Source: Thiotrichaceae bacterium (lineage in GTDB: Bacteria; Pseudomonadota; Gammaproteobacteria; Thiotrichales; Thiotrichaceae). From it: a stretch of DNA of 36,249 nt. Both the position numbers and the translations under genes were made by a program. Position 1 is the stretch's first letter. Each line of letters starts with the position of its first letter. Below, one piece after another: positions 5,998 to 36,249 of the stretch. Below the pieces are notes generated by a model. That model worked only from the letters and a program-made list of their open reading frames with translations. It had not been told where the DNA came from and ran no database searches. The stretch is taken from assembly GCA_015490895.1 (NCBI GenBank), contig WFWY01000033.1:1-36249 (forward strand), given 5' to 3'.

Positions 5998-6912
5998 TCA
6001 CTTTATGACACTCCTGTGATTTTCGCCACGCCCCCTATTCCCGGACAAGCTCCCAGGTTGATAAGTCGTATTGGAGATAGCTTCTATCAGACGCAAATGC
6101 TTATTATCCAGATTGAGGACGCTGTCAACCCAAAAATTGACAATCGTATCCAGCTCCTGTCTGTTAACCGGAGAGAACTGTTGTACCATTTTACGCATGG
6201 ACTGAATACCCTGTTGCTGTTGTTGGCGCCTGGAAATAAATTGTAGCGTGGTTTTGTAACCCTGCCCTTGTGGGCAGACTCTATCAACAATATTCATTTC
6301 ATGCAGTTCATGTGCGCTGTATTCTCTACCACTGTAGATGATTTCTTCCGCGATATGGCTGGGTACACGCTGCCGCAAAAAAGTATACGCACCCATTCCT
6401 GGAAACAACCCGAAACGTGTCTCCGGAAAAGCAAACACCGCTTGTTCCTCAGCAATCATAATATTCGCTGCAAGCGCTGCTTCAAAGCCACCTCCCAGTG
6501 CCATTCCCCGAATAAGAGTAATGGTTGTTACGGGCAAATGATAATTACTTGCCAGTTGATAAACAAATTCGACAGAGTCTCTTGCATAGCTCTGCAACGC
6601 TGCTCTGTCATGGCGCCTGGCGCATTGATAAAAATATCGCAAGTCCCCCCCCAGGGAAAATATATCTGGAATATCAGAGCCCAGCACATGAAAACTCACA
6701 GATGTTTTTTTCGTCCGGTCAGCAGTAGCCGTCAGCAGCTCCTGTTGCACCGATAAAAACTGTGTGAGTAGATTTGGAGTAATTCGACAGGGGGCATCTG
6801 GTTTCAGAATGCTCCATAAAATACCCCCTGAAGACGGATTAAGGTAATTATTAAGTGCACATCGCTGAGCCCCGAACAAGTCGGTTTTTCCTTCAAAAGG
6901 TATGACTGTCAT
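5998..6912 (-). CDS. RpfF-like DSF synthase (crotonase superfamily)
   Basis: Probable enoyl-CoA hydratase-fold enzyme of the RpfF type. RpfF makes diffusible signal factor, a cis-2-unsaturated fatty acid, from 3-hydroxyacyl-ACP by dehydration and thioester cleavage. The 304-residue sequence keeps the oxyanion-hole segments SLGGDL (86-91) and ALGGGFEAAL (138-147). It also keeps both glutamates known to be catalytic in Xanthomonas RpfF (E141/E161 there), here E144 in GGFEAAL and E164 in PETRFGLFPGMGAY. The GLFPGMGAY segment and the later VDRVCPQGQG resemble RpfF more than FadB or PaaF enzymes. The C-terminus is slightly extended and basic. It diverges from an ACP-ketosynthase pair across a 257-bp region with a large palindrome. 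No RpfC, RpfG or RpfR receptor lies in the window. Family is secure; the exact product is inferred. Confidence 0.82.
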   Translation of the reverse strand: MTVIPFEGKTDLFGAQRCALNNYLNPSSGGILWSILKPDAPCRITPNLLTQFLSVQQELLTATADRTKKTSVSFHVLGSDIPDIFSLGGDLRYFYQCARRHDRAALQSYARDSVEFVYQLASNYHLPVTTITLIRGMALGGGFEAALAANIMIAEEQAVFAFPETRFGLFPGMGAYTFLRQRVPSHIAEEIIYSGREYSAHELHEMNIVDRVCPQGQGYKTTLQFISRRQQQQQGIQSMRKMVQQFSPVNRQELDTIVNFWVDSVLNLDNKHLRLIEAISNTTYQPGSLSGNRGRGENHRSVIK

Positions 6913-7169: not shown

Positions 7170-7427
7170 ATGCTAACTCGCGAATTACTTGAGCAAAAAG
7201 TTATTGATATTGTGCAAGAGACACTTGCGCTGAATACGCCACCACGTCTGGAGGATTCTTTCAGAGCGGATCTTAATGCCGACTCTATTGATATCGTCAC
7301 ACTGCTAGTCAGTCTTGAAGATGAACTGGGAACACCCTTTGATCAAAATGCACTACAAGACAAGGATACACTGCTTTCTGTCGTTAATTTTCTTGATGAA
7401 TTATTACTACAGACTGAAAACGCATGA
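7170..7427 (+). CDS. Dedicated acyl carrier protein
   Basis: Small acidic carrier protein of 85 residues. The phosphopantetheine attachment serine is in LNADSIDIV (S39), with DSI where housekeeping ACPs have DSL. Acidic helix II residues (SLEDELGTPF) and the C-terminal helix NFLDELLL fit the four-helix ACP fold. The ATG at 7170 is preferred over one 42 bp upstream because AGGAG lies 5 nt before it and the product then has normal ACP length. The stop overlaps the ketosynthase start as ATGA. It differs clearly from the housekeeping acpP at 15537-15770, so it is probably a specialised carrier for the adjacent ketosynthase and perhaps for the RpfF-like enzyme. Confidence 0.9.
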   Translation: MLTRELLEQKVIDIVQETLALNTPPRLEDSFRADLNADSIDIVTLLVSLEDELGTPFDQNALQDKDTLLSVVNFLDELLLQTENA

Positions 7428-8794
7428 GCTCACAGTCATCAGAAGCATGCCGGGTGTTTATCTCTGGCATGGGCATGATTACTCCGCTCGGACTTGATCT
7501 TCACAGCAGCTGGCAACACATCCTGGAAGGTAAACCCTGTGCCAAAAAAATACCGCCACACTGGTATGATTATCTGGATTTCCGTTCCGGTATCTGGGCT
7601 CCCCTCCCCGACATGGATTTCATGTCACAGGGTTTTCGTCGTGCAGAAACCATACAGAATGATACTTCAACTTTGCTCGCCATCGTTGCAACACATGAAG
7701 CATTGCAACAGGCGGGAATCGAAACCGTACTGACTGATAAAAAACGCAACCAGTATCAGCTTGCTACTATTAATCCGGAGCGTTGCTCCGTCATCTACGG
7801 CACAGGATCTGGTGGTTCCTGCTCACTACTGACCAATTTCAGTTATCACGCTATTGCAACGTGTAAACAGAAACTTTCTGAAACAGAAGCCTGTCACGAG
7901 AGTGAAGCACTACAGACACTGTACCACCCGCCTACACTAAACCCTTTCGTTATTCCCATGTCCATCTGTAACAGTGTGCCGGCAGGGATAGGGATAAAAT
8001 ATTCTGTTCATAATGATGTACAACCCGTTGTGCAAGCCTGTTCATCAGGAACAACCGCTATCGGTGAAGCCTTTCGCAAGATTCGCTCCGGCCAGTCTGA
8101 TCTGGTGATCAGTGGTGGCATTGAGCATTTGAAGGATCATTGGGGAGCCAGCTATAAGGGTTTTGATCTTGCACGCACCCTGGCCATGATTCCTGCAGAC
8201 GGTAATATTGATGCAGCCAACCGACCCTTTGACAAGGATCGCAGTGGTTTTCTGTTTTCTCAGGGAGGTGGTGCCAGCCTGATACTGGAAAGTGAAGAAC
8301 ATTTGCTGAACCGTGGCGGCACAGCACTTGCAGAAATCGTCGGTTTCGCTGAAACTTTTGATGCCAGCTCAGTCATGGCACCCGAACAAAGTGGCACACA
8401 GATAGAGCGCATGATAAGAAAAGCGCTCGACAGCGCCGGTATTACAGCCGGTGATATTGGCTATATTAATGCACATGGTACAGGGACTGTTTCTAACGAT
8501 CAGGTGGAAGCTCGTGTTATTGAACGGGTCTTTGGAAGCCAGACACCGATTAATTCTACCAAGTCTATCATTGGTCATTCACTGGGTGGCAGCGGGGCAA
8601 TTGAAGCTGCTGTTTGTGTGCTGAGTATGCAAGACCAGGTACTACATGCATCATCTAACCTGGAGAACCCTATTGCAGCACTGGATTTTGTCACCACGAA
8701 GCGGGATACCAGCAGCACACCTGTTCACTATAGTTTTTCAGAGTCCTTTGCCTTTGGCGGTCATAACAGTGGCCTGGTTCTCAAACGTGTATGA
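7424..8794 (+). CDS. FabF-like beta-ketoacyl-ACP synthase paired with dedicated ACP
   Basis: Thiolase-fold condensing enzyme of 456 residues with a complete Cys-His-His triad: C206 in VVQACSSGTTA, H351 in NAHGTGT and H385 in SIIGHSLGGSG. The glycine-rich C-terminus FAFGGHNSGLVL is typical of KAS II and type II PKS ketosynthases. It is about 40 residues longer than the housekeeping FabF at 14215-15459. Extra sequence lies in two places: about residues 45-75 (a Trp/Asp-rich segment) and 105-175 before the active-site cysteine. The Cys-containing loop also differs (QACSSGTTAIGEA against [13 protein letters not shown]). It is translationally coupled to the ACP. Likely role: one or more decarboxylative condensations on that ACP. 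Substrate and product are unknown. Confidence 0.88.
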   Translation: MSSQSSEACRVFISGMGMITPLGLDLHSSWQHILEGKPCAKKIPPHWYDYLDFRSGIWAPLPDMDFMSQGFRRAETIQNDTSTLLAIVATHEALQQAGIETVLTDKKRNQYQLATINPERCSVIYGTGSGGSCSLLTNFSYHAIATCKQKLSETEACHESEALQTLYHPPTLNPFVIPMSICNSVPAGIGIKYSVHNDVQPVVQACSSGTTAIGEAFRKIRSGQSDLVISGGIEHLKDHWGASYKGFDLARTLAMIPADGNIDAANRPFDKDRSGFLFSQGGGASLILESEEHLLNRGGTALAEIVGFAETFDASSVMAPEQSGTQIERMIRKALDSAGITAGDIGYINAHGTGTVSNDQVEARVIERVFGSQTPINSTKSIIGHSLGGSGAIEAAVCVLSMQDQVLHASSNLENPIAALDFVTTKRDTSSTPVHYSFSESFAFGGHNSGLVLKRV

Positions 8795-14214: not shown

Positions 14215-15459
14215 CTACATTTTTTTAAAGATAAGTGTTCCGTTTGTTCCACCAAAGCCGAAAGAGTTACTCATGGCAACATCAATTTTAGCGTCCCTGG
14301 CAGTGTTGGCCACATAGTCCAGATCACATTCCGGATCCTGGTTGTCAATATTGATGGTTGGTGGAAGTACCTGGTCGCGAATAGCAAGAATAGAAAAAAT
14401 TGCTTCAATACCACCTGCCGCACCCAGTAAATGCCCGGTCATGGATTTCGTTGAGCTAACAGCAACCTGCCTGGCGTGATCGCCCAATGCACGTTTCAGG
14501 GCAACGGTTTCAGCCACATCACCAGCCGGTGTTGAGGTGCCATGTGCATTAATGTAATCCACATCCTCAGGATTCAAGCCAGCATCTTTTAAGGCATGTA
14601 ACATGCAGCGTGCTGCCCCTTCACCATCCGTCGAAGGTGAGGTCATATGATAGGCATCACTACTCATACCAAAACCGGCCAGTTCGCAGTAAATATCAGC
14701 CCCCCGTGCTTTGGCAGACTCGTACTCTTCCAGCATAATCACGCCGGAGCCATCTCCCAGCACAAAACCATCACGGTCTTTATCCCAGGGGCGACTGGCA
14801 GCGACCGGATCATCATTGCGAGTTGACAGGGCACGGGCAGCTGCAAAACCGCCAATACCTAATGGCGTTGACCCCATTTCTGCACCCCCACAGAGGAAAG
14901 CATCTGCATCACCATAGCTAATCATTCTGGCAGCATCACCAATACTGTGTGTTGCTGTGGCACAAGCAGATACGGGAGAAATATTGTGACCTTTCAGGCC
15001 ATGCATGATAGACAAGTTACCGGCTACCATATTGACAATGCTGCTGGGGACAAAGAAAGGAGAGATACGCTTGGGGCCTTTTTCCAGAAAGACACTGTAA
15101 TTCCTTTCAATGGTACCGAGGCCACCAATACCTGAACCGACGATAACGCCGGTACGTGATGCATTTTCTTCGGTCACTTCAAAGTTGGCATCAACTATCG
15201 CATCCGTACCCGCTCCAATACCATAATGGATAAAGGGATCCATCTTTTTCTGGTCTTTGCGCTTGATATAATCATCGACCACAAAGTCTTTAACATTGCC
15301 CGCAATTTTTACACTAAAATCTGTGGTATCAAACAGATTATCACTGATGACATTAATACCACTTTTTCCAGCCAGAATATGACTCCAGGCTTTCTCAATT
15401 TTGGAACCGACGGGTGATACAATACCCAGTCCAGTCACTACAACGCGTCTCTTAGACAA
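14215..15459 (-). CDS. fabF: 3-oxoacyl-ACP synthase II (KAS II)
   Basis: Housekeeping condensing enzyme that elongates acyl-ACP with malonyl-ACP, including the step that adjusts cis-vaccenate content. The 414-residue product has the catalytic triad C166 ([12 protein letters not shown]), a histidine in [11 protein letters not shown] and another in [12 protein letters not shown], plus the [15 protein letters not shown] ending. Length is normal. It follows acpP by 76 bp and precedes pabB by 75 bp on the same strand. Confidence 0.97.
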
Positions 15460-15536
15460 TGCTCTGACCTTTAATAGTTTTCAATAGAGATATGACTTGC
15501 ATAGCGTTCCTGTATGAACACAGGTGCAATCCAGAC

Positions 15537-15770
15537 TTATGCATTAGCGTTAATATAATCAACGGCTTTTTGAACAGTTGTGATTTTTTCTGCCTCATCA
15601 TCAGGAATGTCAGCATCAAATTCTTCTTCCAGAGCCATCACCAGTTCAACGGTATCCAGTGAATCAGCGCCCAAATCGTCAACAAACGAAGACTCTGCTT
15701 TCACCTCACTTATGTCAACATCCAGTTGTTCAGCGACGATTGCTTTTACACGGCTTTCAATATCACTCAT
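15537..15770 (-). CDS. acpP: Acyl carrier protein (housekeeping)
   Basis: Carrier of growing fatty acids, 77 residues and strongly acidic. The phosphopantetheine serine is S37 in [12 protein letters not shown]. The ATG at 15770 is chosen because AAGGAA lies 8 nt upstream and the product then begins [11 protein letters not shown] as in other ACPs; a longer frame adds nine unlikely residues. It lies between fabG (131 bp upstream) and fabF. The larger gap before it, with a palindrome, could hold an extra acpP promoter. Confidence 0.97.
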
Positions 15771-15843
15771 TGTTGTGTTCCTTAAAATTAAAATCAAAGT
15801 TTTGGCCAGATAAAGACTGTACCAGTAGATCCAAGTTGGCTAT

Positions 15844-15859
15844 TGTAGTTAAAACTACA
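15844..15859. promoter_or_regulatory. 16-bp palindrome upstream of acpP
   Basis: TGTAGTT (15844-15850) and AACTACA (15853-15859) form a perfect 7-bp inverted repeat with an AA spacer, 74 bp upstream of the acpP start in the fabG-acpP gap. It could be an operator for a fatty-acid regulator or the stem of a small RNA hairpin. It does not match the FadR or FabR consensus I know. Confidence 0.35.
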
Positions 15860-15901
15860 TCTTCAATCCAGCATTTATCCGGCCCGTTGGAATATCGAGG
15901 G

Positions 15902-16657
15902 TCAGGCCATATACATTCCACCATTCACATGAATGGTCTCTCCAGTAATATAGGCGCCCATATCCGAGGCTAGAAACAATACCGCATTGGCGATATCCTC
16001 CGCATGACCAAGGCGTTGCAACGGAATTTCCCTGAGCAATGTTTCTCGCTGTTCTTCCGGCAGGGCTCGGGTCATATCCGTATCAATGAAGCCGGGAGCA
16101 ACCACATTAACAGTGACGCCACGAGAACCAATTTCTCTGGCAAGGGATTTTGAAAAACCAACCAGTCCCGCCTTGGCAGCAGAATAGTTTGTCTGGCCAG
16201 CATTTCCACTGGCACCCACAACGGAGGAAATGGAAATAATACGCCCCACCCGAGCCTTCATCATGCCTCGCAGACAAGCTTTGGAGGTACGATATACAGA
16301 CGATAAATTGGTGTTAATGATACTGTCCCATTCATCATCTTTCATACGCATCAATAAATTATCTCGCGTAATGCCGGCATTATTCACCAGGATCCGAATC
16401 GCGCCGAACTCACCGGCAATCGCCTTCACTACGGTCATGACTGAATCAGAATCGGCAACATCCAGTACCATGCCCTTACCTTCTACCCCCTGTTCCTGGA
16501 AGTAATCAGAGATTGCCTGTGCCCCCTTTTCCGAGGTAGCTGTGCCAACGACCGTTGCTCCTGCTTGCCCCAGCATCTCGGCAATGGCACGACCAATCCC
16601 CCGGCTGGCTCCCGTTACAAGTGCGACCTGACCCTGTAGCTCTATATTGTTACTCAT
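15902..16657 (-). CDS. fabG: 3-oxoacyl-ACP reductase
   Basis: NADPH-dependent short-chain dehydrogenase of the fatty acid cycle (251 residues). Seen are TGASRGIG (15-22) for the cofactor, NNAG (92-95), and catalytic S145, Y158 and K162 in SSVVGASGNAGQTNYSAAKAG, with E. coli FabG spacing. The C-terminal GETIHVNGGMYMA is typical. The start ATG overlaps the fabD stop by 4 bp. Confidence 0.97.
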   Translation of the reverse strand: MSNNIELQGQVALVTGASRGIGRAIAEMLGQAGATVVGTATSEKGAQAISDYFQEQGVEGKGMVLDVADSDSVMTVVKAIAGEFGAIRILVNNAGITRDNLLMRMKDDEWDSIINTNLSSVYRTSKACLRGMMKARVGRIISISSVVGASGNAGQTNYSAAKAGLVGFSKSLAREIGSRGVTVNVVAPGFIDTDMTRALPEEQRETLLREIPLQRLGHAEDIANAVLFLASDMGAYITGETIHVNGGMYMA

Positions 16658-17601
16658 TTTTCTTTCTCCTGCACCAGCTGTAGTGCTTTATCCAGTGAAG
16701 CGTTATCCTGTACACAGATTGTCTTTATACCTTTATCTATGCGTCGATTCAGTCCAAAAAGGACTTTCCCCGGCCCAAACTCAATCATCTTTGTTGCCTG
16801 CTTATCCTGTTTTAAATGGTGAATACTATCCACCCATTTAACAGGCCTGTAGAGCTGTTCTGCCAGCACTTCACGAATGCCTGCGGCATCCGTTGCAGTG
16901 GCCGCATCGACATTATGAAAAACCGGTGTATCAGGGTAATGAATGGATACTTCTTGCAGATGGCTGGCTAATTGCTCAGCAGCTGATTTCATTAAATCAC
17001 AATGCGAAGGGACACTGACAGGCAAATCAATAACCCGCCTGGCACCTGCTTTTGTTGCCAGAGCCATTGCCCTGGCAACAGCCTCCTTGTTGCCGGCAAT
17101 CACCACCTGACCCGGCGAGTTAAAATTCACAGCCTGCACTATCTCACTGGCAGCCGCATCGGCACAAACTTTTATAACCTCATCGTCATCAAGCCCCAGA
17201 ATTGCGGCCATGGCGCCCGCACCTTCCGGTACTGCCTGCTGCATCAAGGCGGCTCGTGTTCTCACCAGCATCACAGCATCTGTAAACGGGATAGCTTCAG
17301 CGGCAACCAGAGCGCTATATTCTCCCAGACTGTGCCCTGCCAGAGCAACAGGCTGCCCTCCCCCCTGCGCTTGCCAGACACGCCAGGTCGCTATGCCTGC
17401 GGTCAACATCGCAGGCTGCGTATTAACCGTTTTATTAAGCTCTACAGCGGATCCGTCCTGAGTTAACGTCCAAAGGTCAAGTCCCAGCGCATCAGAAGCT
17501 TCTTCGAAGGTCTGCCTAACCACAGGAAAAGAAGCAGCCAAACCGGACAACATTCCAACACTTTGCGATCCCTGTCCGGGAAAAATACCAGCGAATGCCA
17601 T
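16654..17601 (-). CDS. fabD: Malonyl-CoA:ACP transacylase
   Basis: Loads malonate onto ACP for fatty acid synthesis. The 315-residue product begins MAFAGIFPGQGSQ, has the nucleophile S91 in AGHSLGEYSALVA, and the catalytic histidine H200 in VSVPSHCDLM. The internal ATG at 17601 is chosen over one 45 bp upstream because AAGGAG lies 6 nt before it and FabD proteins begin at this point. It is first in the fab operon here. plsX, fabH and rpmF, which often precede it, are absent; infA is divergent instead. Confidence 0.97.
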   Translation of the reverse strand: MAFAGIFPGQGSQSVGMLSGLAASFPVVRQTFEEASDALGLDLWTLTQDGSAVELNKTVNTQPAMLTAGIATWRVWQAQGGGQPVALAGHSLGEYSALVAAEAIPFTDAVMLVRTRAALMQQAVPEGAGAMAAILGLDDDEVIKVCADAAASEIVQAVNFNSPGQVVIAGNKEAVARAMALATKAGARRVIDLPVSVPSHCDLMKSAAEQLASHLQEVSIHYPDTPVFHNVDAATATDAAGIREVLAEQLYRPVKWVDSIHHLKQDKQATKMIEFGPGKVLFGLNRRIDKGIKTICVQDNASLDKALQLVQEKEK

Positions 17602-17727
17602 GTTTACTCCTTGATAAAGAGAGGGTTCGGAACTATATATCTGCAACAGGGGTATAGTTCACGCCATAAATGCGTGCGATAATACCGATTAATTACCTGC
17701 GGATAAAGCTATCTGGTCAATTAGACC

Positions 17728-18927: not shown

Positions 18928-19086
18928 GAGCTTGTCCAGAAACAGAAAGTGTAGCAGAAAACCACAGGAATATTGCAAGCTAGGCTTATTGAACAAGGTG
19001 AATAGTTTCTCTATTTAACAATTTCAATAAGTTAAGGTATGATGCTCACAGGGTTTGTAGTAGTTTCCCGGTTCCAGGACAAGCTC
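18928..19086. repeat. Family B inverted-repeat element, copy 1 (159 bp)
   Basis: Perfect 10-bp terminal inverted repeats, GAGCTTGTCC (18928-18937) and GGACAAGCTC (19077-19086). The interior matches the second copy at 33170-33328 over its length, for example CTATTTAACAATTTCAATAA against CTATTTAACGATTTCAATAA. No coding capacity is seen. It lies 141 bp before the chosen flippase start and could affect its expression. Confidence 0.8.
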
Positions 19087-20562: not shown

Positions 20563-21768
20563 TTAGTCATAGAGATAAAAACCGGAAGCTTGTTGTTTCC
20601 AGTGTGTTTCATCAGCCTGTAGTCTTGTTTCCAGTGCCTCGACTGTAGCTTCTGCACGATCTATCCAGTTCCTCAAAAAATCCCCGCCATTAATGACATC
20701 AAAAGCAAGGCGGTCAAACTCATATTCATAAGGAAAATCACGCCACAAGGGATAAGCCGGGTAAAGCAGACGAATACTTTTCAGAAACAGTGCCAACAAC
20801 CGAAACGGTTTAAAATCATCTGGCTTGTACTCCGGATAGTCCGTATGCAAGTGGAGACCGGCACACAAGACCCCCTGATATTTGTGGAAGGTTGGTTCAA
20901 ACCAGACTTCGCGCAGACGGACGCCTTGCATCCATTGCGGTGCCAGTTCGTACATCTGCCGTAGAATATTTGGTATATCCAGATTCGGCGCACCAAACTG
21001 CTCCAGTGGTCGGGTTGTGCCCCGCCCTTCTGACAAGGTGGTCCCCTCCAGCAAGACCGTTCCCGGATAGGCTCTGACGGCATTCAGTGTCGCAATATTG
21101 GGGCTTGGGTTTACCCAGCAGAGCTGCTCTTGTGGCCAGCCATAACCGGGAGCTGCGTCCATGGAATAACCTTGCAGAGCAATCACCGTGAGTTTAAGTG
21201 CCAGAGATCGGTGATGCTGGTACCATTGTGCGGCCTCGCCAAGAGTTAGCCCGTGTCGCATCGGGATGGGAGCTGCGCCAACAAAGCTTTCCTGCCCAGG
21301 TTCCAGCAATAAGCCTTCAATCACTCTGCCTGCCGGGTTTGGTCTGTCCAGCACCCAGACTTCTTTATCGCAGTCAGCCAGGTCTTCCAGCAGATAAAAT
21401 AGCGTGGTGATAAATGTATAGATCCGGCAGCCGACATCCTGAATATCAACCAGCAGCACATCAAAGGTTTCCAGCATGGCGGGAGTGGGACGTCTGACTT
21501 TTCCATACAAGCTAAAAACCGGTATCTGGTGCCGGTGATCCATGCTGTCTGCTGTTTCCTCCATATTATCCTGTTTATCACCACGCAAGCCATGTTGTGG
21601 GCCAAAACAGGAAACCAGCTGGATATTCGGGCAGTCCATCAAGGCATCAATAGTGGGTCGAAAGTCACTGGTCAGGGAGGCAGGATGTGCCAGTAATGCC
21701 ACGCGCTGGTGTTTTAGTCTGGCCTGCAATGCTGGCTCATTGAGCAGACGGTCAATCCCCAGCATCAT
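20563..21768 (-). CDS. DUF1343/NamZ-family exo-beta-N-acetylmuramidase-like protein
   Basis: Member of the DUF1343 family, whose Bacillus representative NamZ removes MurNAc from the non-reducing end of peptidoglycan fragments. The 401-residue product shows the family pattern: [91 protein letters not shown] and [15 protein letters not shown] later [20 protein letters not shown] segment and [21 protein letters not shown] are also conserved. No signal peptide is visible, so it may act in the cytoplasm on recycled muropeptides. The ATG overlaps the recQ stop (ATGA), so it is co-translated with recQ. Confidence 0.88.
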
Positions 21769-23975
21769 GGTGCGTTACTCACTTGCTCCATCCCCGCAAT
21801 CACACACTGCAATATACTATAGTCCCACTGTTCTTCAAGTGCTTCATACAACGGTTTCATACTTTCACCCCAATGCACCGAAAGAAAGGAAGCTGCTGTT
21901 TCTATCGTTTCTATTTCCGTATCGCTCAATGTCAGCACTTGATGCCGCTGTAGCTCACCCGCGTGAATAGCATTAGCAAGGTGTGTATAAACCGTTGAAG
22001 GTTTAAGGCTACGCTGCTGGCAAATAGCGTCCGGATCCAGGCCATCTTTAAACATGGCAAGCGTGATGGTGGTGGTCTCATTCAGTGACGGGTTACTCTG
22101 TGCTGCTCCCTGGTTCTGATAGTGAATATCCGCTACTTCCTGCACGCTAGTATCGGAAGGAGGATGCTGCCGAATAATAGCCATAAACTGCTCACCATAT
22201 TTTTCCAGCTTGGATTGCCCCACACCGTGAATAGCCAGAAAGTCGCTATCGCAGGTTGGTCGATACCCTGCCAGATCATCCAGTACTGAATCATGAAAAA
22301 TAACATATGGGGGAACACCCTGCTCTTCTGCCAGCCGGGTACGCAACTGACGGAGTGCATCACGTACTACCTGATCAGCTTCTGCAAGCTGTGTACGAGC
22401 TTTCTTCCCGACACCTGTGCGCTGGCGTGCTTTCTTTTCCGGCTTACGCTGTTTCCGCGCCATAAAAACTTCTTCACCTCGCAGCAGATTACGCGCTTTT
22501 TCTGTCAGCTTCAGTACACCATGCTCCATATCGACATGCAGATAGCCCAGAGCAATTAATTCACGAAAGATACCCCGCCACTCTACCTGCGTATAGTCGG
22601 TACCAATACCCCAGGTGCTGATACGGTCATGCCCGTTATAAGCGATTCGCTTGTCCGTCTTGCCAACTAGCACATTAATAACATAAGTCACCCCAAAACG
22701 CTGCTGCGTCCGGTAGACACAGGATAATGCCATTTGTGCCAACCGGGTTGCGTCCCATGTTTCGGGGGGATTATCGCAGTTGTCACAATACCCGCATGGT
22801 GCTGGCAATGCTTCATCAAAATAGGCCAATAGCGCCTGGCGCCGGCAGGTCGAAAGTTCGCACAACCCCAGTAAGGCCTGTAACTTAAACTGGGTTACCC
22901 GCTTTATGGTATCGCTGGCATCAGAATCTTCCAGCATTTGGCGCAGAAAGATCACGTCTTGCAGGCCATAACTCATCCAGGCATCAGCGGGCTCGCCATC
23001 ACGTCCGGCACGTCCGGTTTCCTGGTAGTAAGATTCAATATTCCTGGGCAGGCTCAAATGTGCGACAAAGCGTACATCCGGTTTGTCAATTCCCATACCA
23101 AAGGCGATGGTTGCTACTATAATGACACCCTCTTCCCGCAAAAACCGTTGCTGATTTTGTTTACGTTGTTGCTGGGATAGCCCAGCATGATACGGTAGAG
23201 CCAACCGGCCTTTCTGCATCAGCCATTCGGCTGTACTTTCCACCTTTTTTCGAGACAGGCAATAGATAATGCCTGCATCTTCGGGATGTTTTTGCTCCAG
23301 AAACTGCCACAGGCGCTGGCGCACATTACCGCTTGATTCAGCAATCGTATAATGAATATTGGGTCGGTCGAAACTGTTAACAAAAATACCTGCCTGCTGA
23401 AGGCTTAACTGTTGCAGTATTTCTTGCCGGGTACGAGCATCCGCTGTTGCTGTTAGCGCGACCCTGGGCACCGTAGGAAAATGCTGTGCCAACAGACCCA
23501 GTTGTTGATACTCCTTGCGGAAATCATGCCCCCATTGCGATACACAGTGCGCTTCGTCAATTGCAAACAGGGAAATCTGGCACTGATCCAGTAAATTGAT
23601 CATTGCTTCGGTCAGCAGGCGCTCTGGTGCTACATACAGAATATCCAGCTCGCCCCGGAGTAATAACGCCTCTGTCTCCTGCTTTTCCAGAAAAGATAAT
23701 GATGAGTTAATAAATGCAGCGCGTATCCCCAGTTGACGCAGTGCATCCACCTGATCCTGCATCAATGCAATGAGCGGAGACACGACAACGCCAACACCAC
23801 GACGCACCAGTGCGGGTATCTGGTAACACAGTGACTTGCCACCCCCGGTTGGCATTAATACAAACGCATCTTCACCCTTGATCAAGGACTGAATAATTGT
23901 CTCCTGGTTATGCCGAAACTGGTCATAACCAAAGGTCTGCTTGAGAACGTAATGGGCATCAGTGTGTGTTGGCAT
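21765..23975 (-). CDS. recQ: ATP-dependent DNA helicase RecQ
   Basis: 3'-to-5' superfamily 2 helicase for recombination and fork repair (736 residues from the chosen ATG). Domains in order: helicase with Walker [13 protein letters not shown] (41-52), [14 protein letters not shown] and [12 protein letters not shown]; a zinc-binding region with [10 protein letters not shown] and CGYCDNC; a winged helix; HRDC ([20 protein letters not shown] to [13 protein letters not shown]). A C-terminal helix-turn-helix of about 90 residues ([20 protein letters not shown]) marks the long RecQ type. The upstream GTG frame adds 20 hydrophobic residues unlike RecQ, so the ATG at 23975 is preferred although its ribosome-binding site is weak. 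It overlaps the NamZ-like gene by 4 bp. Confidence 0.96.
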
Positions 23976-24066
23976 AGACCGAAATATAGAGGATAGCGCA
24001 GCAGATATGAAGTAAATTCCGAGGAATATCACCACCTGTCATAAAAGATTCACTGCTGATCTTTGG

Positions 24067-32643: not shown

Positions 32644-33123
32644 CTACGGATTCAAATTCCAGGATCTTTGTAACACCTCTACTGCCTCCGCAACACGCTG
32701 CGGAGGTATCACACCACTTCTTCCACGAATAACCGAACGGGATGTGCCGATGGCTACCTGCGTGTCGCCTCTGGTAAATTCATGACGGCTATAAAAGTAC
32801 TTTTCATCATAATCGTGGATATGCATTTTAATGGTATATTCCTGAAATAGTGTCAAAGAAGCCTTGTAAGTCATATCATGGTAAGCAATCAGGGGCATCC
32901 AACCATGCTGCTTCATCACACGCAGCAACCCCGTGCGTACAAACAAATCAAAACGGGACAAGTCACACAAAGTGAGAAAACGCCCATTATTCACATGCAA
33001 ATTAACATCCAGGTCATTCGGCCAAACCCTTAGGGAAAATTCATTTCTCAGGTCATCCGGTGTAATCACGCTGGCACGACGAGCTCGCCAGTAGATCCAG
33101 AGCATTCGCAGATAAAGATTCAT
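32644..33123 (-). CDS. Hotdog-fold thioesterase (4HBT-like)
   Basis: 159-residue protein resembling acyl-CoA thioesterases of the Them6/4HBT_2 type. The N-terminus is weakly hydrophobic (YLRMLWIYWRARR). The hotdog signature WPNDLDVNLHVNNGRFLTL (34-52) follows, with Asp37 and Asp39 as candidate catalytic residues and Asn/His pairing typical of the family. Then come LSRFDLFVRTGL and a beta-rich C-terminus (YSRHEFTRGDTQVAIGTSRSV). It lies downstream of the hydrolase on the same strand, separated by a family B repeat. It could release free fatty acids or remodel acyl-CoA used by the desaturase operon. The substrate is not predictable. Confidence 0.8.
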   Translation of the reverse strand: MNLYLRMLWIYWRARRASVITPDDLRNEFSLRVWPNDLDVNLHVNNGRFLTLCDLSRFDLFVRTGLLRVMKQHGWMPLIAYHDMTYKASLTLFQEYTIKMHIHDYDEKYFYSRHEFTRGDTQVAIGTSRSVIRGRSGVIPPQRVAEAVEVLQRSWNLNP

Positions 33124-33150
33124 GTATCTATCCTTTTGAGATATTTACTA

Positions 33151-33184
33151 TTTTCGGACAGCCTTCCAGAAGCTTGTCCGAAAA
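33151..33184. repeat. Inverted repeat at the left edge of family B copy 2
   Basis: TTTTCGGACA (33151-33160) is exactly complementary to TGTCCGAAAA (33175-33184). It includes the left end of the family B element, suggesting an inverted fragment of a second family B end next to it. No T-run follows, so it is not a clear terminator. Confidence 0.5.
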
Positions 33185-33328
33185 CAGGAAGCGTAGCGAA
33201 AATCACAAGAATATTATAAGCCGGGCTCATTGAATGAGGCGAACAGTTGTTCTATTTAACGATTTCAATAAGTTCAGGTTATGATATTCATGGGGTTTGC
33301 AGTAGCTTCTTAGTTCTCGGACAGGCTC
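33170..33328. repeat. Family B inverted-repeat element, copy 2 (159 bp)
   Basis: Ends AAGCTTGTCCG and CGGACAGGCTC, 9 of 10 complementary. Same length and order as copy 1 at 18928-19086 (TCTATTTAAC, TTTCAATAAGTT, ATGAT, GGGTTTG). Its right 41 bp are read as the last codons and stop of the YheT-like hydrolase. Confidence 0.8.
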
Positions 33329-34226
33329 CTAGTTCAGGTGCCAGCTTGAATTGGCTCCGATATGATGTGTGGAAAAATCCCAGATGTCCACCATTGGGTA
33401 GCAGGTTTAATTCAAAACCCCTACGTGCTGGAATCTGTGAATACAGCTTGTTATAGGGGATGAGAGGGTCATTTGCCGAGTTAGTCAACTTGCAGGGGAT
33501 ACTTACCTCTTTGAGAAATTGCAGGGCACTATTCTCTGTATAATACTGCTCCAGGCTACCATAACCATTCAGGGGAACCGTAATCTGTTCATCGAAGTCA
33601 ATCATGCAGTCCACCTTCTCAAGTGTTGGCAAAATAGCTAGTGTCTTAGCATCTTTGCGTCTTTTCAGCAAACGCCGATAACGTGACAAAACGACTTTCT
33701 GATACAAACGGCTAAAGCCTTCATTAACAATTTTTGCTGTTAACCCCAGATCAAGCGGTACTGAAATACAATGCAGCAAACGTGTAAACCACTGGGCACA
33801 AGCATGCTTCGCAGCCCACTGGCTCAGTACAATCCCCCCCAGTGAAAAACCGATAATAGCGCTCAACGAGGTACCTGTTTTATCACACAGATAGCGAATC
33901 ACTTCATCAACGTCATCAACAGATCCGGCATTAAAATAACCTGCTGTAGTACCGGGAAAGTCTGTACAGTTTCTAAGTTCAACGACAACCGGCGTCATCC
34001 CTTCCTGCTGCAATTCTCTGACAGCAGCCTGAACAACAGGCGCATGCCGGTTACTCGCCATGCCCGGAATTAGTAAAACTGTCTTGTCATACTGCAGGGG
34101 AGCCGGATAATGTAATGCAACAAAGTCACCGTCCGATAGCGGTATTGTTTCCCACTCCCACGCGGGAGACCTGAAAGCTGACAGTGAAGGACGTATCGTC
34201 TCAACATGCCCCTTAAGTGCACTCAT
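33288..34226 (-). CDS. YheT-like alpha/beta-fold hydrolase with repeat-derived C-terminus
   Basis: 312-residue serine hydrolase of the YheT/ABHD type. The triad is S128 (IIGFSLGGIVLSQ), D253 (NSANDPLIP) and H281 (NGGHLGF). Family-specific parts include ELRNCTDFPGTTAGYFNAG and GFSRLYQKVVLSRYRRLLKR. YheT proteins usually end in a helix after the His segment. Here residues 300-312 (GACPRTKKLLQTP) and the stop are encoded by a family B repeat, so the native end was probably replaced. Activity may survive, since the triad is intact. ATGA overlaps join it to the di-iron hydroxylase-like gene. It likely acts on lipid or acyl esters. Confidence 0.85.
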   Translation of the reverse strand: MSALKGHVETIRPSLSAFRSPAWEWETIPLSDGDFVALHYPAPLQYDKTVLLIPGMASNRHAPVVQAAVRELQQEGMTPVVVELRNCTDFPGTTAGYFNAGSVDDVDEVIRYLCDKTGTSLSAIIGFSLGGIVLSQWAAKHACAQWFTRLLHCISVPLDLGLTAKIVNEGFSRLYQKVVLSRYRRLLKRRKDAKTLAILPTLEKVDCMIDFDEQITVPLNGYGSLEQYYTENSALQFLKEVSIPCKLTNSANDPLIPYNKLYSQIPARRGFELNLLPNGGHLGFFHTSYRSQFKLAPELGACPRTKKLLQTP

Positions 34227-34918
34227 ATTAATCCAGCCTTTTTCATATCCCTGTAGTCTCCCAGGGTTGCTTTACGGGAAACACCCCGTATAACATCCGC
34301 CCCTAACACCAGGTTGAAATTGGATTTTCCTCCATACTTATGGTGGATAAAGTGGTTAACAGCCACTTGTCGCATGTAGCGTGTATTCATCAACCATTTC
34401 AGCCAGAAGCTAGAACTTTTCTGCACCTCTGCTCTCGGGATATGTATGTAATAATGTAACCAGCGTGACATCGGAATTGGCAACCAGGCTGAAATACAAA
34501 TCCCCAGAAAAATGATGTCATTAAACAGGACATAAAATAATGGCAAGGGTAACGCCAGTACAATCATATACTTGATAACGCCTGTTGCACCCAGGCCAAC
34601 GCCGTACCCTGAATTGATAATCAACCTGCCGTGGATGCCCCGTTTGACAAGTTTCTGCTGGAGCTTCTTTTCCTCTTCCTCGGACGCAAACTGTCGGGTA
34701 TGGGCAGTTTTGAATGTATGATAATGGTGAATAATATGATGCGTATAATAAGAGCTTGTTAACCCCGAAAAAAGGCGTGGATAGCGCTTGTAAAACCGAT
34801 AAAACCTGGACGGTGCATCCGATACATACTGATGCATGAATGATTCCACATACGAGCCTGAAAAATAGCCAATACACAAACCGGATACAAAATAAAGTGC
34901 TGTTATGAGCATGATCAT
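34223..34918 (-). CDS. Membrane di-iron hydroxylase/sterol desaturase-like protein
   Basis: 231-residue membrane protein with several hydrophobic segments and histidine clusters of the fatty acid hydroxylase superfamily: HHIIHHYH (60-67), HYYIH (155-159) and HFIHH (189-193). These would bind two irons for O2-dependent C-H hydroxylation or desaturation of a lipid. A charged stretch after the first cluster (SEEEEKKLQQK) is unusual. It lies in a 4-bp-overlapping chain between a fatty acid desaturase and a hydrolase, pointing to joint lipid modification. The substrate is unknown, and the family call rests on the histidine pattern and topology. Confidence 0.7.
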   Translation of the reverse strand: MIMLITALYFVSGLCIGYFSGSYVESFMHQYVSDAPSRFYRFYKRYPRLFSGLTSSYYTHHIIHHYHTFKTAHTRQFASEEEEKKLQQKLVKRGIHGRLIINSGYGVGLGATGVIKYMIVLALPLPLFYVLFNDIIFLGICISAWLPIPMSRWLHYYIHIPRAEVQKSSSFWLKWLMNTRYMRQVAVNHFIHHKYGGKSNFNLVLGADVIRGVSRKATLGDYRDMKKAGLI

Positions 34919-35919
34919 GCTCCAAACTTCACAAGCTGTGAGGTCTTTTCATCCCACAATTTAAGACCAAACGATGCAGGAATATCCTGATATCGCAGCA
35001 CCGTTAACTCAGCAGGGCTACCCAAATCTTGATGAGCCACAGGGAGGTGATAGTTCGGAATTCGAGAATCAAGATGGTGAATGTGGTGGTAACCTATATT
35101 CCCGGTTAACCAATGTCCAACCCTGCCAAGATTCAAAAAAGAAGAACCTTTCAGTGAGGCCTCCGCATGATTCCATCTCTCCCTGTCGCTCCAGTAAGTC
35201 CCCTGATAGTTGTGCTGTACATAAAAAAGAACAATCGCCATCATCGCGGCAAGCCACAGAGAAAGAGCCTCCACCACTAGCACTGCCATCCAGTCAAAAA
35301 ACAGACACAAGCACCCAATCCGCAGCACAATTAACGCATTAGTCAACACGATACTTTGCAGGGATTTTCTGTTTTTCCTTGCAGTAGCATGCGGCCATTT
35401 AAACCAGATGAAAAACTGAAACAATGCTCCCAGCACGACCATCACAAATGGATTGCGGTACAGCTTGTAAGCAAGTTGTGAACGCCCGGAGAGACTGGCA
35501 TATTCTGCCTTGGTCAGTACGCGAATATCACCAATATTACGACCCTGCAAGTTACCAGAATGTGCGTGATGAAAAGCGTGTTGCTGTTTCCAGTAAACAT
35601 GGGGAACATGGGTAAAAATGGATAACAAAAGACCCAGATAATTATTTGCCTTTACAGACTTTAAATAAGCATGATGGGCACAATCATGCTGAATGATAAA
35701 AATACGAATAATAGAAAAAGCCAGTAATAATATTAACCCTGAAAACAAGGATGCTGATAGCAGATCGGATGACACTAAAAGTGAGCCAAAAACCTGCACT
35801 GCCGAAACGTATAGAACACAATATAGAACACTATTCAGAAAAGTCTGCTTGACGCTGGAAGACAAATCTGCTCTCAACAAACGGACATTAACTGCTGCGA
35901 AACTTTCAGTAGAAGCCAT
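34915..35919 (-). CDS. Membrane fatty acid desaturase
   Basis: Di-iron acyl desaturase of 334 residues with three histidine boxes: HDCAHH (78-83), HAFHH (114-118) and HHIHH (278-282), the last in GNIGYHHIHHLDSRIPNY. Hydrophobic segments flank them (about 30-75, 155-172 and 192-235). It introduces a double bond in membrane lipid or acyl-CoA chains using O2, so the cell is at least partly aerobic. The ATG at 35919 is preferred because AAGGA lies 7 nt upstream; the longer frame adds eight residues. It is first in the operon desaturase, hydroxylase-like gene, hydrolase. Regiospecificity cannot be read from the sequence. Confidence 0.9.
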   Translation of the reverse strand: MASTESFAAVNVRLLRADLSSSVKQTFLNSVLYCVLYVSAVQVFGSLLVSSDLLSASLFSGLILLLAFSIIRIFIIQHDCAHHAYLKSVKANNYLGLLLSIFTHVPHVYWKQQHAFHHAHSGNLQGRNIGDIRVLTKAEYASLSGRSQLAYKLYRNPFVMVVLGALFQFFIWFKWPHATARKNRKSLQSIVLTNALIVLRIGCLCLFFDWMAVLVVEALSLWLAAMMAIVLFYVQHNYQGTYWSDRERWNHAEASLKGSSFLNLGRVGHWLTGNIGYHHIHHLDSRIPNYHLPVAHQDLGSPAELTVLRYQDIPASFGLKLWDEKTSQLVKFGA

Positions 35920-36249
35920 GAAGTATCCTTGTAAATAAAACAACGAGGCTTTTTAGAAGAAAGCATACGAAACCAGCAAACTACACACTGATGAAAGGTC
36001 TGCTTTTACGGACAAATAAGATATCGATTTATTATTTTTATTCGTGATTATGGCTCATACATACATGATTATATTTTTCTATGGTGCTATTAAGTGTAAG
36101 TATTGAATATAATACTTCGCAATAACTAATAACCATCATCAAAAAATACTATAGAGGGGGAGAACTACAATTACCCAACAATGTATAATTATTGAACTCA
36201 TTCGCCAGATGTGTATATTTACTAACCATTCTCCCGCTTGCTTTTAATC
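35920..36249. other. AT-rich upstream region of the desaturase operon
   Basis: No gene is seen. The stretch is AT-rich and should contain the desaturase promoter on the minus strand. It includes an inverted repeat AAGTATT (36098-36104) and AATACTT (36111-36117) with a 6-nt spacer, which could be an operator. The window ends before the next gene. Confidence 0.4.

Follow-up and report, generated by a model that had tools for sequence, protein, structure and literature searches.

The closest described relatives of the system treated here include membrane desaturases. In the Bacillus cereus group, the presence of the desaturase DesA goes with C16:1(5) and with thermotype (PMC4521489). PEDS1, a lipid desaturase considered together with CarF and FAD4 (PF10520), carries eight histidines arranged unlike those of classical desaturases (PMC9131029 and PMC8960569); its D100, an aspartate four residues past the essential H96 and modelled beside it, is also essential and is the only tested residue besides the histidines whose change to alanine abolished activity (PMC8960569). 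Here we describe a cluster of four genes in a window of 36,249 nucleotides (nt), meaning the whole stretch of DNA analysed, from a Thiotrichaceae bacterium (assembly GCA_015490895.1, contig WFWY01000033.1, positions 1-36,249 of the forward strand). We tentatively read the cluster as an accessory operon in which membrane acyl chains would first be oxidised, with hydrolysis of esters and thioesters to follow, a proposal to which we give somewhat less than an even chance. The genes run from 35919 to 32644 on the minus strand, with one intervening element:

34915-35919, minus strand: acyl-lipid-type, DesA-like desaturase, 334 residues from the ATG (PF00487)
34223-34918, minus strand: membrane protein of 231 residues, putative remote relative of the fatty acid hydroxylase superfamily (alignment to remote homologues)
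33288-34226, minus strand: YheT/ABHD-like alpha/beta hydrolase, 312 residues (PF00561)
33166-33332, no strand assigned: dispersed repeat copy resembling a miniature inverted-repeat transposable element, with inverted ends, between the hydrolase and thioesterase genes (genome-wide matches and alignment)
32644-33123, minus strand: hotdog thioesterase (4HBT_2, THEM6/YbgC-like), 159 residues (PF13279)

All four open reading frames lie where an earlier, sequence-only reading had placed them, on the minus strand, and its statement that three genes overlap by 4 base pairs (bp) each corresponds to two ATGA junctions, at 34915-34918 (desaturase and 231-residue protein) and 34223-34226 (231-residue protein and hydrolase). 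Its naming of a desaturase, a YheT-like hydrolase and a hotdog thioesterase was also borne out by Pfam matches and intact catalytic motifs, the motif residues being intact in all four proteins. An alternative TTG start of the desaturase is open at 35943, and only 330 bp of contig precede the operon. Between the hydrolase stop and the thioesterase start lie 164 bp, the thioesterase having an AAAGGA sequence of its own ahead, and promoter-like sites are not enriched (10 observed, 9.2 expected from shuffles). The unit looks co-transcribed.

The unit recurs, though within a narrow range of genomes. The gene of the 231-residue protein was found in three of the six genomes of the genus, and the count stays at three, own genome included, among the 39 genomes of a first set of relatives and among 63 genomes of the family, all carriers belonging to one genus. 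With a three-row profile, only the window's own genome responded out of 398 from the phylum, and a profile search of 369 class genomes returned, besides the own gene, the remote homologues L004 and L005, the same three being recovered by a five-row profile. The gene stands directly behind the desaturase in all three carriers. One of them, G005 (JALXAX010000114.1), has all four genes in the same order at 56-66% protein identity, with a gap of 3 nt between desaturase and 231-residue protein, an overlap of 4 nt between the latter and the hydrolase, and hydrolase and thioesterase genes 8 nt apart, provided that the second ATG of the thioesterase (L008 8517) is taken as its start. Gene order and tight spacing exceed chance, since the same arrangement is kept in a relative at that identity. 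In the other carrier, G003 (JALVFC010000163.1), the desaturase and the 231-residue protein are encoded together and the contig ends inside the second gene; the genes preceding the operon differ between G003 and G005. Within the genus, none of the four genes was found in G001 (completeness 100), G004 (99) or the incomplete G002 (69), and their presence and absence go together. The neighbourhood conservation proposed earlier as a check was thus found, complete in one further genome and partial in another, and within one genus only; the complete unit was not found in any other genome searched. An empty insertion site was not demonstrable, as the far side of yhbY differs among the genomes read and the window contig stops shortly before the operon.

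Protein change is constrained where it could be measured: nonsynonymous and synonymous divergence (dN and dS) were 0.146 and 3.77 for the 231-residue protein between window and G003 (160 codons), and 0.268 and 2.73 for the thioesterase between window and G005, dS being saturated in the four remaining pairs. In G005, a further PF00487 desaturase (117.6 bits) lies 134 nt downstream of the operon (L008 9119-9922), followed by FadE-like and thiolase-like genes, so named by inspection of their sequences. A homologue of this extra desaturase (278 residues, E 3.8e-83) adjoins another desaturase in G011 (L064 3725-4561).

A shared role of the four genes in acyl-lipid modification is likely, because two histidine-box membrane proteins and two acyl hydrolases are kept together at 56-66% identity and are absent together from close relatives. 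In the favoured scheme, the DesA-like desaturase would place a double bond in the acyl chains of phospholipids of the membrane, and the 231-residue protein would introduce a second O2-dependent change into the same lipid pool, most likely a hydroxylation and possibly a second desaturation; the YheT-like hydrolase might then cleave acyl esters that have been modified or damaged, and the resulting acyl-CoA would be hydrolysed by the thioesterase, so that the chains could be recycled or exported. What we infer is which substrates are used, in which order the steps run, that the 231-residue protein has a metal site and that all four proteins serve a single pathway; the order given in the sequence-only reading (desaturation, hydroxylation, release) is one possible sequence. 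The coupling of the genes in three genomes, the DesA-type desaturase, the intact motifs and the joint presence and absence all count in favour of the scheme.

In another account, the desaturase sets membrane fluidity in homeoviscous adaptation, and the other three proteins are passengers that serve general lipid turnover or quality control with no ordered pathway. It draws on the occurrence of YheT-like hydrolases and THEM6-like thioesterases on their own in related genomes and on the association of DesA with growth-temperature types in Bacillus (PMC4521489). Against it stand the position of the 231-residue protein's gene directly behind the desaturase in every carrier and the distinctness of the operonic hydrolase from a second, canonical-looking YheT-like gene, present elsewhere in G005 and 29% identical to the query. 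We consider this account rather unlikely.

The desaturase matches PF00487 (FA_desaturase) with 89.4 bits (cut-off 29.7), and its three histidine boxes (H78-x3-H82, H114-x2-H117-H118 and H278-H279-x-H281-H282) are invariant in the three orthologues and recur in desaturases of Priestia and Paracoccus that are about 40% identical. Its best NCBIfam model is that of the Bacillus delta-5 DesA (NF052548, E 5.1e-78). A carotenoid pathway was also considered and was rejected because the CrtW model (E 1.4e-4) is outscored by DesA. Among the 369 class genomes, nine matched the desaturase at E up to 1e-20, own genome included. A neighbour test took seven of the other eight (G332 was left out), and the six cleanly tested showed no other protein of the operon beside it; in L058 the desaturase was hidden by the longest-open-reading-frame filter of this test, which may hide other genes too.

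The 231-residue protein of the window matched no Pfam family at E up to 10, apart from a chance Tim54 row. The weak matches within its family are to PF04116 (FA_hydroxylase, cut-off 31): two of five family members gave sub-threshold matches, namely the G005 orthologue (17.5 bits) and L005 (19.9 bits), with no match for the window protein. L004 and L005 align with it at 28-29% identity. Its candidate metal ligands are H29, D34, H60, H64, H65, H155, H159, H189, H192 and H193, and all nine histidines of this set are kept in L004 and L005, whereas the non-motif H61, H67, H73 and H96 are not. D34 is invariant in the three orthologues and is replaced by histidine in L004, L005 and an open reading frame of a Nostoc plasmid, while the PF04116 protein L045 is gapped there in the same alignment. 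Profile comparison with L004 and L005 gave 93%, or 83-89% with one or two added rows, against at most 1.7% in ten shuffled controls. Direct comparison with PF04116 members gave 1.7-2.7%, little above the 1.3% of the best of eight shuffled controls, rising to 30-57% once two or three homologues were added and to 43-58% for the homologues alone; a value of 92% was reached only by the circular route of including the PF04116 protein L045 in the query. That the protein descends from the hydroxylase group is only likely, since this rests on the intermediate homologues. The di-iron hydroxylase proposed in the sequence-only reading is a possible identity of the protein: the histidine register supports a metal site, but no Pfam cut-off is passed and an aspartate occupies one ligand position of box 1.

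That aspartate invites comparison with PEDS1, CarF and FAD4, a family marked by vinyl-ether or trans-3 desaturase activity. The 231-residue protein could be a lipid desaturase of their kind, with an essential aspartate by the box-1 histidine, and the operon would then make a doubly unsaturated or otherwise unusual lipid. The invariance of D34 where L004, L005 and the Nostoc frame have a box-1 histidine agrees with this, as does the PEDS1 precedent of a functional aspartate near the box-1 histidine (PMC8960569). Nonetheless, the spacing is H-x4-D as opposed to H-x3-D (H96/D100) in PEDS1, the weak matches of the family are to PF04116, and PF10520 gave no match in the five family members at E up to 10, a search in which HMMER filters may hide weak matches and which no direct profile comparison accompanies; we regard this alternative as unlikely. 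The replacement of a ligand histidine by D34 and the lack of a Pfam match could also be taken to mean that the protein has lost oxygenase activity and acts as a membrane partner of the desaturase. The retention of the nine other motif histidines at 28-29% identity, with loss of the four non-motif ones, argues against such a partner role, which we find very improbable. A bolder form of the oxidation and hydrolysis scheme would have the protein found a new membrane di-iron subfamily with a mixed His/Asp site and, with the desaturase and the two hydrolases, make and release an undescribed oxidised acyl product in one genus of Thiotrichaceae; in this full form it is improbable.

Other searches brought no closer relative of the 231-residue protein: sequence searches of the PDB gave chance matches at E of about 1, plasmids gave no match, viral contigs gave 52 pattern stretches with no relative among them, and PHROGs gave no useful match. 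A 239-residue protein of G011 (L064; E 0.005), encoded near two desaturases, was read as a chance match; by its motif we take it to be of CPBP type.

The gap ahead of the thioesterase is mostly made up of a dispersed element of about 165 bp with inverted ends, so that the repeat mentioned in the sequence-only reading is real. In the own genome, 45 match rows stand for at least 40 distinct places, window copy included, since five of the rows repeat a known place on the opposite strand; as 40 of 136 first-look candidates were scored, the true number may be higher. A second window copy occupies 18929-19086, and about 38 further places lie elsewhere in the genome, with copies reaching 93% identity to the window copy; a transposase was not looked for. 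In an alignment of 23 rows, where the window locus occurs as two rows and another copy as one row per orientation, the copies share common edges, with inverted termini near 33332 and 33166. The final 14 codons of the hydrolase lie inside the repeat, its catalytic residues being unaffected. The element probably entered an older four-gene unit, because G005 has no repeat between its closely spaced hydrolase and thioesterase genes.

Several observations weigh against the oxidation and hydrolysis operon. The repeat separates the thioesterase of the window, which may be transcribed apart. The third carrier, G003, may hold the first two genes only, as its assembly, in about 570 contigs and 93% complete, yielded no hydrolase or thioesterase. 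No clustering among relatives of the desaturase, the hydrolase and the thioesterase was observed elsewhere, and the cluster has no gene for a dedicated electron donor. Furthermore, AlphaFold models of the 231-residue protein reached a mean predicted local distance difference test score of 43.6 with the three orthologues and 45.3 with the G005 orthologue placed first, both below 50.

The sequence-only reading did not recognise the combination as a described pathway, and no description of it was found in the open PubMed Central literature, Thiotrichaceae included; each of the four enzymes lies in or near a known family. It looks as though the operon and the Asp-bearing 231-residue family are undescribed as far as searched. 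Should the scheme hold, the known repertoire would gain a lipid-tailoring module and a candidate membrane oxygenase bearing aspartate at a ligand position, a help in telling apart the hydroxylases and desaturases of this group. Lipid analysis could draw on natural presence/absence pairs, given the narrow and patchy distribution; should the scheme fail, the locus is a compact case of lineage-specific lipid metabolism.

Elsewhere in the window, a crotonase of 304 residues (5998-6912, minus strand) has PRK08788 as its best NCBIfam model (275 bits, over the 177 cut-off) and reaches 187 of the 550 bits demanded by the RpfF signal-factor synthase model, so that any likeness to RpfF is distant at best. 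Away from its fab-type genes (14215-17646), the window also encodes an extra FabF-like ketoacyl synthase (7424-8794, plus strand; 317 bits, below the fabF cut-off of 494). On the minus strand, the gene of a NamZ-type exo-beta-N-acetylmuramidase (20563-21768) overlaps the end of a RecQ gene (21765-24035) by 4 bp.

Compared with known systems, the desaturase shares PF00487 and the three histidine boxes with Bacillus DesA (NF052548) and with relatives on plasmids (matched in 201 records at E up to 1e-10; the best, from Priestia, 41% identical over 79% of the query), although its 262.5 bits fall below the equivalog cut-off of 500; one Priestia plasmid copy lies near two cold-shock genes, and neither of the two plasmid copies inspected belongs to an operon of this kind. 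The 231-residue protein shares its histidine register with the PF04116 superfamily by way of homologues, two of which give weak sub-threshold matches, and differs in a window protein below the gathering score and in the aspartate at a ligand position; with PEDS1/CarF/FAD4 (PF10520) it has in common a histidine-rich membrane protein and an aspartate close behind a box-1 histidine, and it differs in its lack of a Pfam match and its spacing. The hydrolase resembles E. coli-type YheT and ABHD1/2/3-like hydrolases in its family profile (PF00561, Abhydrolase_1, 40.6 bits, cut-off 25.8) and in a candidate triad, S128, D253 and H281, located in the triad columns of eight YheT-like relatives, whereas its 130.2 bits against PRK10985 (YheT) fall below the cut-off of 267 and it does not have the PAWWL-type N-terminal motif of most canonical relatives; a match of the G005 hydrolase in L059 (E 0.0067) was set aside as chance. 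The thioesterase scores 29.7 bits against TIGR00051 (YbgC/FadM), below the cut-off of 68.7, whereas it matches PF13279 (4HBT_2) with 77.6 bits (cut-off 25.5) and, like THEM6/YbgC-type thioesterases, has the motif DLDxxxHxNN (DxDxxxHxNN), with candidate catalytic D39; of seven aligned relatives, three share the motif and the other four, which are more distant, carry E instead of H, and the best plasmid relative, a Serratia gene with thiamine genes and no lipid genes beside it, is 46% identical.

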